Under the pieces are notes generated by a model. It did not search any database. It saw nothing but the letters and a program-made list of their open reading frames with translations, and was not told the origin of the DNA. The translations under genes and the position numbers were made by a program. Below are positions 47,723 to 53,716 of a DNA stretch of 64,000 nucleotides, piece by piece. Position 1 is the first letter of the stretch, and each line of letters begins with the position of its first letter. The stretch lies in contig NC_015703.1 in the NCBI RefSeq assembly GCF_000218895.1, positions 247,501-311,500 of the forward strand, written 5' to 3'. The stretch is from Runella slithyformis DSM 19594. GTDB lineage: Bacteria > Bacteroidota > Bacteroidia > Cytophagales > Spirosomataceae.

Positions 47723-49786
47723 TTATGAAATTGACGCGCCCGCCCACACCTCTTTGTGCGGTTGAATCAGCGAAAGGCTGCCGTCACGGTCTTCGGCCAT
47801 GAGGATCATACCGTTGGATTCCTGCCCCATGATCTTGCGCGGAGCGAGATTGGCAATGAAGGTCACTTGCCGCCCTACCATTTCTTCGGGGGTAAAGTGC
47901 TTGGCAATACCGCTCAAAATCGTGCGTTTTTCAAAACCGTCGTCAACCAAGAATTTCAATAATTTATCGCTCTTCGGTACACGCTCGGCTTCCAGGATGG
48001 TACCGATGCGGAGATCCAATTTAGCAAAATCGTCAAATTGTACCGTCGGTTTCAACTCGGGCACCGATTTAGTTTCTAACTCATTCATTTTCTTTGCGTC
48101 GTGTAATTTTTGAATTTGTTTTTCAATGACGGCATCTTCGATTTTCTCAAATAACAGGAATGCATCTTCGATGGTCTCTCCTACTGTCAACAGGTCCGCA
48201 CTGCCTGCCTCTTCCCATTTCCACTGACCGTTCCCCAACTGCTGACGCAGTTTATTTCCCGTAAAAGGCAAAAACGGCTCACTCACAATGGCCAGATTAG
48301 CGGCAATTTGCAGCGCAATATTCATGATCGTATTGACCCGTTCAGCATCCGTTTTGATGACCTGCCAAGGCTGCGTTTCGGCCAGGTATTTATTCCCCAA
48401 CCGCGCCAGATCCATCAAAAACGATAAACCTTCACGGAAACGATACGTTTCGATAGCCTCGGCAATCCGCGCCGGAAAAGCCGCCAGCGTTTCCAGCGTT
48501 TCTTTGTCAAAATCGGTCAATTCACCGCGTGCGGGCACCTTTCCGTCACAATATTTGTGGGTCAGCACCACGGCACGATTCACGAAATTGCCGTAAATGG
48601 CGACCAATTCACTGTTGTTACGGGTCTGAAAATCTTTCCACGTAAATTCGCTGTCTTTGGTTTCGGGGGCATTGGCCGTCAGCACATAGCGCAGCACATC
48701 CTGTTTGTCGGGCATTTCTTCCAGAAACTCATGCAGCCATACGGCCCAGTTGCGCGATGTCGATATCTTATCGCCTTCCAGATTCATGAATTCGTTGGCG
48801 GGCACATTGTCGGGCAAAATATAGTCATCGCCCATCGCCATCAGGGTAGCCGGAAAGATGATGCAATGGAATACAATGTTGTCTTTACCGATAAAATGGA
48901 CCAATTTGGTATCTTGGTCTTCAGGTGACGACCGCCGCCACCAGGTTTCCCAACCCGCATCGGTGCCGTTTTTCTGAATCAACCAATCTTTGGTGGCCGA
49001 AATGTACCCGATCGGCGCTTCAAACCACACGTAGAGTACTTTGCCGTCGGTATCCGGCAGCGGCACTTTAATGCCCCAATCCAAGTCACGGGTCATGGCG
49101 CGCGGACGCAGCCCTTCCTTCAGCCAAGACTGGCACTGACCGGCCACGTTGGTCTTCCATTCGGTATGGCCGGTGACGTATTTTTCAACGTCAGGCTGCA
49201 TTTTATCCAGCGGCAGAAACCAGTTCTTAGTGGCCCTCAATACGGGTTTTGAACCCGACAGCGTAGAATGCGGATTTTTTAATTCCAGCGGACTCAACGC
49301 CGTGCCGCAACGCTCGCACTGATCGCCGTAGGCGTTAGGATTGGCACACACGGGGCACGTACCCACAATGTAGCGATCGGCCAGAAACTGCTGCGCCACT
49401 TCGTCGTAATATTGCTCGCTAACTTCCTCAATGAAACCGTCTTTCTCGTAAATGGTCTTGAAAAACTCCTGCGAAGTTTCGTGGTGAATGGGCAGGCTGG
49501 TGCGGGAATACACATCGAACGAGATTCCAAAATCTTCAAACGATTGCCTGATTTGGGTATAATATTTATCAACGACCGCCTGAGGCGTCAGACCTTCTTT
49601 TTTAGCTCGAATGGTAATGGGTACGCCGTGCTCGTCGGTACCGCTCACAAAGGTTACGTCAGCGCCTTTGGCCCGTAAATAGCGCACATAAATATCCGCC
49701 GGTACATAACAGCCCGCCAGGTGCCCGATGTGGATGGGCCCATTGGCATAAATGAGGGCGGCTGTGACGGTGTATCTTTTACTCAT
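47723..49786 (-). CDS. metG: Methionyl-tRNA synthetase
   Basis: MetG charges tRNA-Met. The 687-residue protein has HIGH in [12 protein letters not shown], the zinc knuckle CPVC-x9-CERC (one of four cysteine pairs), the KMSKS equivalent [10 protein letters not shown], the helical anticodon-binding domain, and a C-terminal tRNA-binding domain ([34 protein letters not shown]) from about residue 580. A Met two codons earlier is also possible. It divides the carotenoid genes from the rhodopsin gene on the opposite strand. Confidence 0.97.
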
Positions 49787-49812
49787 AATCATAGAATGTC
49801 AAATTTGAGGGG

Positions 49813-50640: not shown

Positions 50641-51405
50641 ATGCAAATGTTAAACATTCTCTTAGACGGTGCACTCGCCGCAGGTGACTACATCGGTTTT
50701 ACTTTTTTCACCGGCTACATGTCAATGTTGGCCGCTTCCATCTTTTTTATCGTTGAGCGCGGCACGGTAGCCGACAAGTGGAAAACCTCCCTGTTGGTAT
50801 CCGCTTTGATCACGTTCATTGCCGCAGTACATTATTTTTACATGAGGGGTGTATGGCTGGAAACCCACACCTCGCCCACGCAATTCAGATACATCGACTG
50901 GACCCTGACCGTGCCATTGATGTGTATTGAGTACTACCTGATCCTGCGTCCTGCCGGCGCCAAAAGCGGTATGCTCGTCAGACTGTTGCTGGGTTCGATT
51001 GTCATGCTGGTTGCGGGCTACATCGGTGAAGCCGTAAGTCCCGAATCCAATGTACTTTGGGGGATCATTTCTACCCTTGGCTGGGCCGCGATCATCTATG
51101 AAATCTACATGGGTGAGGCTTCCAAGGTAGCCGCCGCTTCCGATAGTCAAGCGGTAAAAGACGGTTACAATGTACTGCGTTGGTTTACCTTCGTAGGATG
51201 GGCCATTTATCCGATTGGTTACATGTTGCTTCCGGGAAATCTTCTGAGCGGCCTCGTTGAGGGCGTAGATCTCACCAAGAGTTCTCCGGTCGACTTAGCC
51301 TACAACATTGCCGATGCCGTCAATAAGATCGGCTTTGGTTTGGTAGTGTACAGTATTGCTAAGAATGCTACCGAATCCGCCAAAGTGAAGAGCGCAGTTG
51401 CTTAG
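50641..51405 (+). CDS. Light-driven proton pump (proteorhodopsin-type)
   Basis: The 254-residue seven-helix protein has the outward proton-pump triad in helix C: proton acceptor D86, T90 and proton donor E97 (the DTE set of proteorhodopsin). H64 matches the histidine that pairs with the acceptor aspartate. The retinal Schiff-base lysine is K229 in DAVNKIGFG. M94 occupies the spectral tuning position (Leu in green, Gln in blue forms), so green absorption is expected. The pump would build proton-motive force in light. Retinal can be supplied by the nearby crtY-blh pair. A strong terminator follows. Confidence 0.96.
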   Translation: MQMLNILLDGALAAGDYIGFTFFTGYMSMLAASIFFIVERGTVADKWKTSLLVSALITFIAAVHYFYMRGVWLETHTSPTQFRYIDWTLTVPLMCIEYYLILRPAGAKSGMLVRLLLGSIVMLVAGYIGEAVSPESNVLWGIISTLGWAAIIYEIYMGEASKVAAASDSQAVKDGYNVLRWFTFVGWAIYPIGYMLLPGNLLSGLVEGVDLTKSSPVDLAYNIADAVNKIGFGLVVYSIAKNATESAKVKSAVA

Positions 51406-51440: not shown

Positions 51441-51477
51441 AAAAAAGTGCAGCCTTGTATAAGGCTGCACTTTTTTT
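51441..51477 (+). terminator. Terminator after the rhodopsin gene
   Basis: A 16-base perfect inverted repeat (AAAAAAGTGCAGCCTT with its complement, 51441-51456 and 51461-51476) has a 4-base loop and ends in a T run. This is a textbook intrinsic terminator. Confidence 0.92.
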
Positions 51478-51576
51478 GTTTTCAAAAACGCGGGATTTAC
51501 TCCCACAACAGGGGTAAAATAGTACGGGAAAGAAGAATTGTTTAACTTTGACCCTGCCGTTATTGCTTATACACGT

Positions 51577-52575
51577 ATGGATAATTTCATCAAAAACCTC
51601 GAAATCAAGAATTTCAAGTCCATCAAACATCTCTCTCTCGACTGCAAACGGGTGAATGTGTTCATCGGCAAGCCCAATGTAGGCAAGTCAAATATTTTGG
51701 AGGCATTGGGATTGTTTTCGTCCGAATTCATGATGGAAAATTTGAATGAATTCATACGGATGAAAAAATTAGACGATTTATTTTTTGATTTTTTTCTGTC
51801 AGATAAAATCAGCATTAAGCTTGATAATAAGTTTCATTTAACATTCTCATTAGAAAATGAAAAGAATGGCCTTGCGGTCTTTTTATTGAATATCTATGAA
51901 AACAATACTATTATTGAGTCAATTCCTCTGGTACGAGATGGATTGATAAAATGGAGTGAAAGCCATTACACAAAAAACGTTTTTACGAAATATTATAGAT
52001 TTAATGCTTTTGATCCTACGGACACACATTTAAAAACTTATTTATACCCACCATTTGGAGAAAATCTTTTTGAGATAGTTACAAATTACCCTGAAATACG
52101 TTCCAGAATTGTATCAATGTTGAAAGAGCAAAATTTAGAATTTGTCAGTTTAATTAATGAAAGAGATTTCAAACTACAAAAAAACATAGATGGCTTCGTT
52201 ACACAGTATCCCTACTCAAGCATTCCGGATACCTTTCAGCGTTTCATCTTCTATTTAGCCGCCATTGAATCCAACACCCACTCCGTGCTGATTTTCGAAG
52301 AACCGGAGGTGCATTCGTTTCCGCCCTACGTAAAGGAATTGGCCGAACGGATGATTTTGAAGGATGATAACCAATACTTTGTCTCCACGCACAGCCCTTA
52401 TCTGCTGCAAACATTTATTGACAGTTTGGACGATACACAACTCAACGTTTATTTGACGTATTACAAAGATTACCAAACGCACGTCAAAGCGCTGACGCCT
52501 GATGATCTGAGTGACATTCAACGTTTTGGGTATGATGTATTTTTCAACTTGAAAAAGTTTGAGCCAAATGATTGA
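51577..52575 (+). CDS. ABC-type (OLD/AAA15-like) ATPase of a two-gene ATPase-TOPRIM module
   Basis: The 332-residue protein begins IKNLEIKNFKSIKHLSLD, the typical first strand of SMC/OLD-like ATPases. It has Walker A GKPNVGKS (residues 31-38), Walker B LIFEEPEVH (E241-E244), and the switch-histidine motif STHSPYLL. The middle (about 50-215) is more AT-rich and not recognisable, with no coiled coil long enough for an SMC arm. The start at 51577 puts the family motif at the N-terminus; the frame extends to 51538. The partner gene overlaps by 8 bases. The pairing of such an ATPase with a TOPRIM-like protein recalls PARIS, RloA/RloB-like and OLD systems. A defence role is inference. Confidence 0.85.
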   Translation: MDNFIKNLEIKNFKSIKHLSLDCKRVNVFIGKPNVGKSNILEALGLFSSEFMMENLNEFIRMKKLDDLFFDFFLSDKISIKLDNKFHLTFSLENEKNGLAVFLLNIYENNTIIESIPLVRDGLIKWSESHYTKNVFTKYYRFNAFDPTDTHLKTYLYPPFGENLFEIVTNYPEIRSRIVSMLKEQNLEFVSLINERDFKLQKNIDGFVTQYPYSSIPDTFQRFIFYLAAIESNTHSVLIFEEPEVHSFPPYVKELAERMILKDDNQYFVSTHSPYLLQTFIDSLDDTQLNVYLTYYKDYQTHVKALTPDDLSDIQRFGYDVFFNLKKFEPND

Positions 52576-53071
52576 ACGTGAAGTTCGTATTATTCCGGAG
52601 TGTTATGCAGACACGGTTTTAGCTAAATTTCTTTTTTCAAAACCTGAGTTTGTCAACCACGCCCTAAGTATTGGGCAAGTTGCCGTTGAAATGGAAGCAC
52701 AACGAAATGACGCAGTCATTTTGATAGGATTTGTCGATAATGACAAACGAATTCCGCCCTATTTTAGAGATTTCGAAGAAATTGAACGGGGTGAACGGGT
52801 GCTTTTTAAACAAAAAGATGACTATCGTGTACAGCATTTTCTTGTTGTGTTAGACAAAGCCATTGAGACGTTCCTCCTCTATAATGCTGCCGCTGTCGGC
52901 ATCCAAGTGGCCGATTTCGGTTTTTCAGAGATACCAAAGGAATTTCAAAAAAGCCTCAAAAGCCAACAGATTGAAGATGATGAGAAGCATCATTCGCTCT
53001 TGAAGGCACTTCGTACCGGACAAGCCCCTGATTTTGTGAAGATTAATACCTTCTTGAGTCAGTTTCTTTAA
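52568..53071 (+). CDS. Small TOPRIM-like protein, partner of the upstream ATPase
   Basis: The 167-residue product shows the outline of a minimal TOPRIM domain. A first acidic motif is in IIPECYADTVLAKFL (E with a following D). A DxD-type motif is in DAVILIGFVDNDKR. A C-terminal segment, FLVVLDKAIETFLL, resembles the helix after the third strand. A charged helical tail follows. It lacks the extra domains of DUF4435 or OLD nucleases and is shorter than AriB. The start overlaps the ATPase stop by 8 bases, so the two are translationally coupled. Nuclease activity is a hypothesis from the motif only. Confidence 0.7.
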   Translation: MIEREVRIIPECYADTVLAKFLFSKPEFVNHALSIGQVAVEMEAQRNDAVILIGFVDNDKRIPPYFRDFEEIERGERVLFKQKDDYRVQHFLVVLDKAIETFLLYNAAAVGIQVADFGFSEIPKEFQKSLKSQQIEDDEKHHSLLKALRTGQAPDFVKINTFLSQFL

Positions 53072-53149: not shown

Positions 53150-53280
53150 CGGGCAGATGCAGAGAAGGCAGACATAATACATGGGCAGACGCAAGGCCTG
53201 CCCCTACGATTACGTTTTACATTTGTAATTTTTCTGTTTGGCGGTTTTTCGGTTAACAAGAAGGCAACGGGTCTGCCCCT
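53150..53280. repeat. Cluster of GGGCAG / CTGCCCCTAC palindromic repeats
   Basis: The region holds a direct repeat of CTGCCCCTAC (first near 53199, second near 53272). GGGCAG occurs as a palindromic partner at 53183-53188, and further GGCAGA copies are present. The pattern resembles a short interspersed palindromic element. It fills the gap between the TOPRIM gene and smpB and touches the smpB stop codon. Confidence 0.45.
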
Positions 53281-53716
53281 ACTCGTCATGACCGCGTTTA
53301 AGATCGCGCTCTTTGATGGTTTCGCGTTTGTCGTAGAGCTTCTTGCCTTTGGCGAGGGCCACGTCCACTTTCGCCAAGCCTTTTTCATTGATAAAGATGC
53401 GCGTCGGTACCACCGTCAGCCCCTGGTCTTTCAGTTTCAGCTGCAACTTTTTCAGTTCCCGCTTTTTCAGCAGCAGTTTACGGTCACGCGTGGGATTATG
53501 ATTGGCGTAGGTGCCTTTTTCATAAGGAGAAATGTGCAAATGATGCACGAGCAACTCGCCGTCCTGAAAAATACAGTAGGCATCGGTCAGGTTGACTTTT
53601 CCCTCCCTAATGGATTTTATTTCGGTGCCCGTCAGCACTACTCCGGCCGTGTAGGTCTCCAAAAAGAAGTACTCAAACGAGGCGCGGCGGTTACTTATAT
53701 TAATGGTTCTGCTCAT
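53279..53716 (-). CDS. smpB: SsrA-binding protein SmpB
   Basis: SmpB delivers tmRNA to stalled ribosomes. The 145-residue protein has [58 protein letters not shown] and the C-terminal [30 protein letters not shown]. These are diagnostic, including the basic tail that enters the decoding centre. The length is slightly below the usual 150-160. tmRNA itself was not found in the window. Confidence 0.96.

Follow-up and report, generated by a model that had tools for sequence, protein, structure and literature searches.

OLD proteins have been sorted into classes, among which PARIS is 'Class 4' (PMC10568477, available in part). In PARIS, AriA holds AriB, a phage protein releases AriB, and AriB cuts tRNA (PMC11455837; the same mechanism is given in the available part of PMC12409363); the system has been classed with toxin–antitoxin systems (PMC11455837). 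Other members are built differently: the Class 1 OLD protein of Thermus scotoductus (6p74) is a single fused protein of 528 residues, and in Gabija (Class 2) the fused GajA adjoins a UvrD-like helicase (PMC10568477, in part). Operons encoding an OLD-ABC ATPase and a TOPRIM protein have been named as conflict modules in a survey of BREX, citing Aravind and colleagues (PMC12839542, in part). Here we analyse a pair of this broad, already known ATPase and TOPRIM make-up in a 64,000-nucleotide stretch of Runella slithyformis DSM 19594 (contig NC_015703.1, positions 247,501 to 311,500; hereafter the window).

We consider it probable that this pair is a split OLD-type, PARIS-like immune receptor and effector in which sensor block and nuclease are swapped while the locus stays fixed. 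Computational comparison of its relatives revealed constant pairing of the two genes, a predicted TOPRIM fold with its active-site residues kept, fixed chromosomal positions, a hypervariable interior discordant with the neighbouring MetG, and scars where the pair is missing. If confirmed, the novelty lies in the mode of evolution, which would surprise specialists; our search of an open-licence library turned up neither this subfamily nor any pair that stays at one locus while its interior is exchanged.

An ATPase paired with a small TOPRIM protein

Homologues of the small protein occur in 24 of 198 relatives, in 39 of 222 genomes and 9 of 36 genera of the family (44 matches), in 10 of 395 genomes sampled from the phylum, and at 7 further loci from other Bacteroidota records. 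We analysed 56 loci beyond the window's own (43 from the family, 6 from the order and 7 from the other Bacteroidota records); six phylum loci (G285, G326, G330, G371, G381 and G575) lie outside this set. An ATPase gene is immediately upstream at 55 of the 56, the remaining locus beginning at a contig start, and the spacing at all 55 two-gene loci runs from a 26 bp overlap to a 7 bp gap, with start codons picked by script. Pairing is thus obligate in the loci read. In the window, the two genes were found as the sequence-only reading of this DNA had described them, sharing an 8 bp overlap (Table 1), and each is present as a single copy in the 6.9-Mb, 6-contig genome, where two other ATPase matches are weak and partial. 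Five other genomes (G066, G661, G622, G670 and G664) each carry two pairs of different positional classes.

The first gene encodes an ABC/OLD-type ATPase of the Pfam AAA_15/AAA_21 group, with Walker A, the EE of Walker B and the H-loop. A strict P-loop pattern is present in 53 of 55 ATPases, the exceptions being L045, where a contig end cuts the gene, and the divergent L028; EEPE and THSP or THNP are found in all 55. At E ≤ 10, 101 PADLOC models match the window ATPase, with AriA at the top (E 3.4e-20, residues 5–202) and AbiLi also aligning (E 8.9e-18, residues 4–287). Among 29 members, every ATPase is also hit by the retron model ATPase-Toprim_I-B.

Structures were predicted for the two window proteins. 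That of the 167-residue partner has a TOPRIM fold (predicted local distance difference test score, 94), as had been suspected from the letters, and 10 of its 11 top VIA matches are OLD, GajA or PARIS entries; these matches come from VIA-align on chains ranked by Foldseek, which itself gave no significant match. The acidic residues follow the layout of BpOLD, namely a Glu, an acidic residue four positions on and DxD (PMC6755086, in part). A loose form of this pattern (E...D and D.D) is kept at 54 of 56 loci, all but L121 and the shortened L031, and the small protein qualifies as a predicted TOPRIM with conserved Glu and DxD. L121 and L122 (G003 and G044) form a shorter, divergent branch of 151–155 residues with ECxxDE in place of the usual ECxxDT, and the DxD of G003 apparently begins with Glu instead of Asp.

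Profile libraries gave the small protein no name, in agreement with the sequence-only reading. Pfam returned no match for the window protein and scattered weak matches, treated as chance, for 31 members; NCBIfam returned two weak matches alone (E 0.07 and 0.14), and neither P0002 nor profile A1 gave a meaningful match when compared with the sequences of solved structures. Profile A1 was made without L031 and profile A2 without L058 (no ATPase), L045 (truncated ATPase) and L028 (divergent ATPase); later-gathered loci are in neither. The only library system touching both proteins is the PADLOC candidate defence pair PDC-M25A/B: M25A matches at E 2.1e-14, and M25B, the one PADLOC match to the small protein, is weak (E 0.0065, 34 residues of a 248-position model) and occurs in 1 of the 31 members.

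The PARIS/OLD logic that had been ascribed to the module holds in that ATPase and TOPRIM are encoded by separate adjacent genes, as in PARIS, and in the structural matches. Several differences remain. The TOPRIM has 167 residues, compared with 305–306 in the matched PARIS chains (AriB by inference), and the AriB model matches none of the 31 members at E ≤ 1 and not the window protein at E ≤ 10. The pair lies in core-gene neighbourhoods and has a hypervariable interior, whereas PARIS lies in phage satellites. By analogy, the anatomy of the pair appears to work like that of PARIS; by sequence, it is not PARIS. In contrast to the fused Class 1 protein, its two genes are separate and overlapping. 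Three other memberships were ruled out: Gabija, because the TOPRIM is a separate gene and the window neighbours are a rhodopsin gene and smpB; AbiL, because AbiLi matches the ATPase but the partner has no AbiLii match in the window or the 31 members; and retrons (Class 3), because the pair, at 0.30 Mb of contig C4, is distant from the genome's two RVT_1 matches (2.09 and 3.86 Mb). These reverse-transcriptase matches (G000:C4:2087478-2088062 and 3855304-3855645) are unlinked to the pair.

Hypervariable interiors between conserved ends

First, nucleotide identity collapses inside the pair. Across five genomes of genus g17, the flanks share mean identities of 80–97% per 150-bp interval; identity drops to 18–65% in two intervals past the Walker A region, partly recovers over the C-terminal lobe (C-lobe; means 69–76%), is lower again in the TOPRIM gene (53–66%) and is back at 90% over the last ~60 bp of that gene.

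Second, the proteins follow the same course among 23 loci at which the pair lies beside metG, with an NAD-epimerase (SDR) gene downstream. Mean identities over 102 same-genus pairs (89 for SDR) are 90% for both MetG and the ATPase N-terminus, 20% for the ATPase middle, 70% for the C-lobe, 45% for the TOPRIM body, 71% for the TOPRIM tail and 77% for SDR. In the 12 pairs with MetG identity of at least 95%, the N-terminus keeps 84–100% and the middle 9–53%, and the TOPRIM body is below 50% in 9 of the 12. Three genome pairs combine MetG at 98% and an ATPase N-terminus at 98–100% with a middle at 10–21% and a TOPRIM body at 36–39%; in G106–G098 the values for MetG, N-terminus, middle, TOPRIM and SDR are 98, 98, 21, 36 and 95%, and in G661–G656 the first four are 98, 100, 10 and 39%. 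Conversely, G020 and G066 have similar TOPRIM bodies (93%) but unlike middles (15%). The window and G006 differ more mildly (N-terminus 98%, middle 65%, C-lobe 94%, TOPRIM 62%, MetG 87%, SmpB 89%). Among other positions, the middle shares 12–48% in the metH class, except for one near-identical pair (N-terminus 68–95%), 36–47% in the SDR class of genus g32, with one pair at 81%, and 22% in the nuo class; the two purB-class alleles are near-identical, as are their purB genes. The carB flank identity of 35% reflects incomplete carB fragments and was not used. The constant parts of the ATPase, with the P-loop, EEPE and THSP or THNP kept, are under constraint while the middle diverges. The AT-richness of the middle, which the sequence-only reading had pointed out, is real (Table 1), and marks a hypervariable exchanged segment, not the insertion of a whole foreign module.

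Third, Mantel tests on 22 loci separate the interior from its chromosomal background. MetG correlates with SDR (rho 0.79), the ATPase N-terminus (0.57) and the TOPRIM tail (0.50), and weakly with the C-lobe (0.20, P 0.007); its correlation is 0.04 with the middle (P 0.32) and 0.03 with the TOPRIM body (P 0.37). Within the pair, correlations link the middle to the ATPase segment that follows it (0.67) and the C-lobe to the TOPRIM body (0.46), with almost none between middle and TOPRIM (0.12, P 0.08).

Fourth, the trees disagree. In the MetG tree, g17 is a clade (100/99) and so are G655 and G666. The approximately unbiased (AU) test rejects a single g17 clade for the TOPRIM body (p 1e-8) and the C-lobe (p 8e-5), and it rejects the G655–G666 pairing, which was selected after the discordance had been seen, at p 0.0014 and 0.0002, respectively. 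Two cross-genus groups are common to the TOPRIM and C-lobe trees: G666 (g5) with G098 and G080 (g17), and G055 (g19) with G678 (g5). The best cross-genus identity of the TOPRIM body is 73%, so the exchanged alleles have diverged and the events would be old or the donors unsampled. In our reading, drift alone does not explain the pattern; partial vertical descent would be overlaid by exchange or by a shared polymorphism of great age.

Chromosomal positions and deletion scars

Of the 56 loci, 44 could be placed in positional classes; most neighbours were identified by eye, with one locus per named class verified by models. The largest class comprises the 23 metG loci (genera g3, g5, g9, g17 and g19), in which the pair is divergent from metG, with the SDR gene and a TPR gene downstream; at 22 of 22 loci with an SDR call, the end of the TOPRIM gene and the SDR start share 20–26 bp. 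Their TOPRIMs form a single clade in a quick tree (95 in the Shimodaira–Hasegawa-like approximate likelihood-ratio test), and the metG position is therefore inherited. G006 has metG and smpB flanks, as in the window, and four g32 loci have SDR and TPR genes downstream and a different upstream gene. The remaining classes lie behind metH (8 loci), purB (2), carB (2) and a threonine dehydratase gene (1), between nuoF and nuoG (2; L030 and L032) and between sucB and lpd (1; L121, with a 3 bp gap to lpd). Related pairs are thus embedded in respiratory-chain (nuo) and tricarboxylic acid cycle (sucB–lpd) operons. The TOPRIM gene overlaps nuoG by 8 bp at both nuo loci, and the ATPase start chosen at L030 is 8 bp past nuoF.

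Some loci have defence-type neighbours. An AbiH gene (L028:5628-6602; Pfam E 2.1e-51) lies near the pair and an AAA_14 gene matching PADLOC PDC-S01 (L054:11140-12336; E 2.8e-29) lies upstream of it at two loci outside the named classes; at L098:5373-6340, an AbiEii-type nucleotidyltransferase and a DUF6922 partner are inserted between metG and the pair. The model-based check beyond the classes covered ten neighbours of 8 of the 12 loci outside them; on this sampling, defence genes do stand near the pair but seem uncommon there. The sequence-only reading had held that the idea of a defence module would be refuted if every relative had the pair fixed here and neither mobile nor defence genes were linked to it. 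Half of that picture is found: within a clade the position does not change, but the pair is present patchily, in 39 of 222 family genomes, and the three loci above do have defence-type neighbours.

Sites lacking the pair retain pieces of it. From the metG matches listed, 38 pair-less metG sites were hand-picked, six of them in genomes that carry the pair elsewhere; metG was located at 37, and L151, where the metG motif was not found, was dropped. Of the 37, 22 hold a blastn match to the ATPase start. All of these but one begin at the first bases of the ATPase and end at 37–88 bp (L155 begins at base 24), and in ten g5 genomes the scar ends at base 62. G011, from the window's genus, adds a 23rd scar, in which 67 bp of the ATPase start, at 94% identity, are followed by the smpB side; the scans reached ~680 bp from metG, and this scar, farther out, was found by a separate comparison. 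At least 33 bp of the TOPRIM end are retained at 7 of the 37 sites, not counting matches of 19–24 bp, because the TOPRIM end overlaps the SDR start. As controls, the minus strand gave 0 loci, and codon-shuffled queries gave 1 locus in 2 of 20 replicates and otherwise 0; queries from the middle, C-lobe and TOPRIM body matched one site, marginally (21 bp, E 0.008). At the other 14 of the 37 sites no scar was found, and loss and original absence are indistinguishable there. Because ATPases at other loci start with the same codons, an origin of the scars in pre-existing intergenic DNA is unlikely.

The pair does lie between a rhodopsin gene and smpB, as had been proposed, both neighbours being identified by models. 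The rhodopsin is a variable neighbour in these lineages: it stands between metG and the pair site in the window's genome (G000) and in G011, which has the same rhodopsin and a similar leader, and is not there in G006, G008 and G005. G006 carries the pair beside metG and smpB without it. Together with the scars, including that of G011, this indicates that the pair is an old resident of these lineages, later lost by deletion. The palindromic repeat beside the pair has 19 matches across the window genome; related repeats (L143:400-800) are expanded in the metG–smpB gap of G008 and G005, with units ~18 bp apart in G008. The G011 scar stops at a degenerate copy of the repeat.

Table 1. Features of the pair and its surroundings, in window coordinates
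Feature	Position	Strand	Basis or remark
metG, anchor of the positional class, outside the system	47723..49792	-	NCBIfam methionine--tRNA ligase, E 8.8e-251
Bacteriorhodopsin-like gene, followed by the terminator-like hairpin	50641..51405		Pfam PF01036, E 6.9e-41
Terminator-like hairpin, 16 pairs and T tail, between rhodopsin and pair	51441..51476	+	Consensus match only
Pair leader	51514..51568	+	G006, 87% over 55 bp; within a longer G011 match
OLD/SMC-type ABC ATPase, 332 residues, first gene of the pair	51577..52575	+	AAA_15/AAA_21
Conserved ATPase N-terminal segment with Walker A (residues 1–50)	51577..51726	+	98% amino acid identity to G006
Hypervariable ATPase block (about residues 51–205), proposed sensor	51727..52191	+	27.5% GC
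Conserved ATPase C-terminal lobe (IPDTFQR, EEPE, THSP)	52192..52572	+	
TOPRIM-fold protein (predicted), 167 residues, proposed nuclease effector	52568..53071	+	Acidic residues E11/D15 and D57-x-D59
Palindromic repeat copy beside the pair	53179..53207	.	Genome-wide repeat
smpB, flanking gene	53279..53716	-	NCBIfam, E 6e-57

Proposed mechanism and its alternatives

A constant core, a variable lobe and a TOPRIM travelling with the adjacent ATPase lobe suggest a sensor, a switch and a weapon, PARIS being the closest system with a described mechanism. Beside the constant nucleotide-binding core of the ATPase, the hypervariable lobe that separates Walker A from the DT-x-x-R/EEPE part would act as sensor, fitted to triggers from phages or mobile elements. 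In the resting state, the C-lobe would hold the TOPRIM nuclease; a trigger bound by the sensor lobe would alter the ATPase, freeing or activating the TOPRIM, which would then cut nucleic acid (tRNA as PARIS AriB does, or DNA as OLD and Gabija do) and halt the infection. New specificities would come from swapping the interior, with both ends conserved, at a locus that is old and immobile within a clade, with the sensor block and the block of C-lobe and TOPRIM moving largely independently and the pair often being deleted. We infer the anti-phage function, the sensor role of the lobe, the activation mechanism and the substrate in this scheme. Frequent deletion of the pair fits a costly, self-harming effector, and the few defence-type neighbours (AbiEii, AbiH and PDC-S01) suggest an immune role.

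Some genus signal runs counter to exchange. The two g9 genomes stay together in both the TOPRIM and the C-lobe trees. The TOPRIM tree also keeps genus clustering, with 6 changes compared with 8.5 expected by shuffling, a value as low in 1 of 200 shuffles. OLD proteins, moreover, need not be defensive: the OLD relative Cran1, a cell-cycle nickase, is reported to be essential and apparently to have no defensive role (PMC12796447, in part).

More tentatively, and with somewhat less than even confidence, we propose that the pair is a fixed, allelically diversified innate receptor, in which the ATPase scaffold is constant, sensor lobe and nuclease are exchanged separately, allele groups are shared across genera, and sister copies are wired into housekeeping operons, which would couple their expression to that of core genes.

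Allorecognition systems, too, typically show allelic polymorphism among lineages. The same switch could serve self/non-self discrimination or competition (an anti-plasmid, toxin–antitoxin or kin-discrimination system), with the variable lobe recognizing the DNA or proteins of other bacteria; the frequent deletion of the pair and the grouping of PARIS with toxin–antitoxin systems (PMC11455837) are in keeping with this, and no result here separates it from an anti-phage role either way. We regard it as unlikely, though the strongest of the alternatives.

A housekeeping nucleic-acid factor, either RecF-like in repair or a cell-cycle nickase of the Cran1 type, would account for positions beside metG, metH, purB and carB and within nuoF–nuoG and sucB–lpd, and Cran1 itself offers a precedent among OLD relatives. 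However, 183 of 222 family genomes have no match and the pair has been deleted repeatedly, and neither a middle at 20% identity beside an N-terminus at 90% nor the discordance with MetG is what a conserved cellular task would predict. This explanation is improbable.

Still less probable is that the variable segments reflect relaxed, fast drift in an ageing selfish pair with no exchange between lineages. Low identity alone could come from drift, deletion is common and part of the genus signal persists, but under drift the nearest relatives by MetG should stay nearest in the interior, which is often not so; the AU tests reject drift for g17, and the active-site residues are kept.

As for the accessory insertion suggested by the sequence-only reading, a defence module recently inserted between rhodopsin and smpB, the low GC of the ATPase middle and the patchy presence agree with it, but it is hardly credible given the G006 pair without rhodopsin, the G011 scar with it, the single clade of metG-class TOPRIMs in five other genera, the scars left by deletions from a position fixed beside metG in several genera, and the lack of any pair match by tblastn in plasmid and phage collections or of any confirmed relative among six pattern matches in viral contigs.

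Bacterial immune genes are usually viewed as cassettes that islands and mobile elements gain and lose as a whole. If the pair is indeed a PARIS-like receptor and effector with exchanged interiors, here the address and both ends of the pair are conserved and the interior is replaced, resembling the polymorphic immune loci of animals and plants. The family would then hold a natural allele series in which sensor and effector have already been recombined, making the determinant of phage recognition directly testable, and hypervariable interiors at fixed loci would offer a way to search for what island-based surveys could miss.
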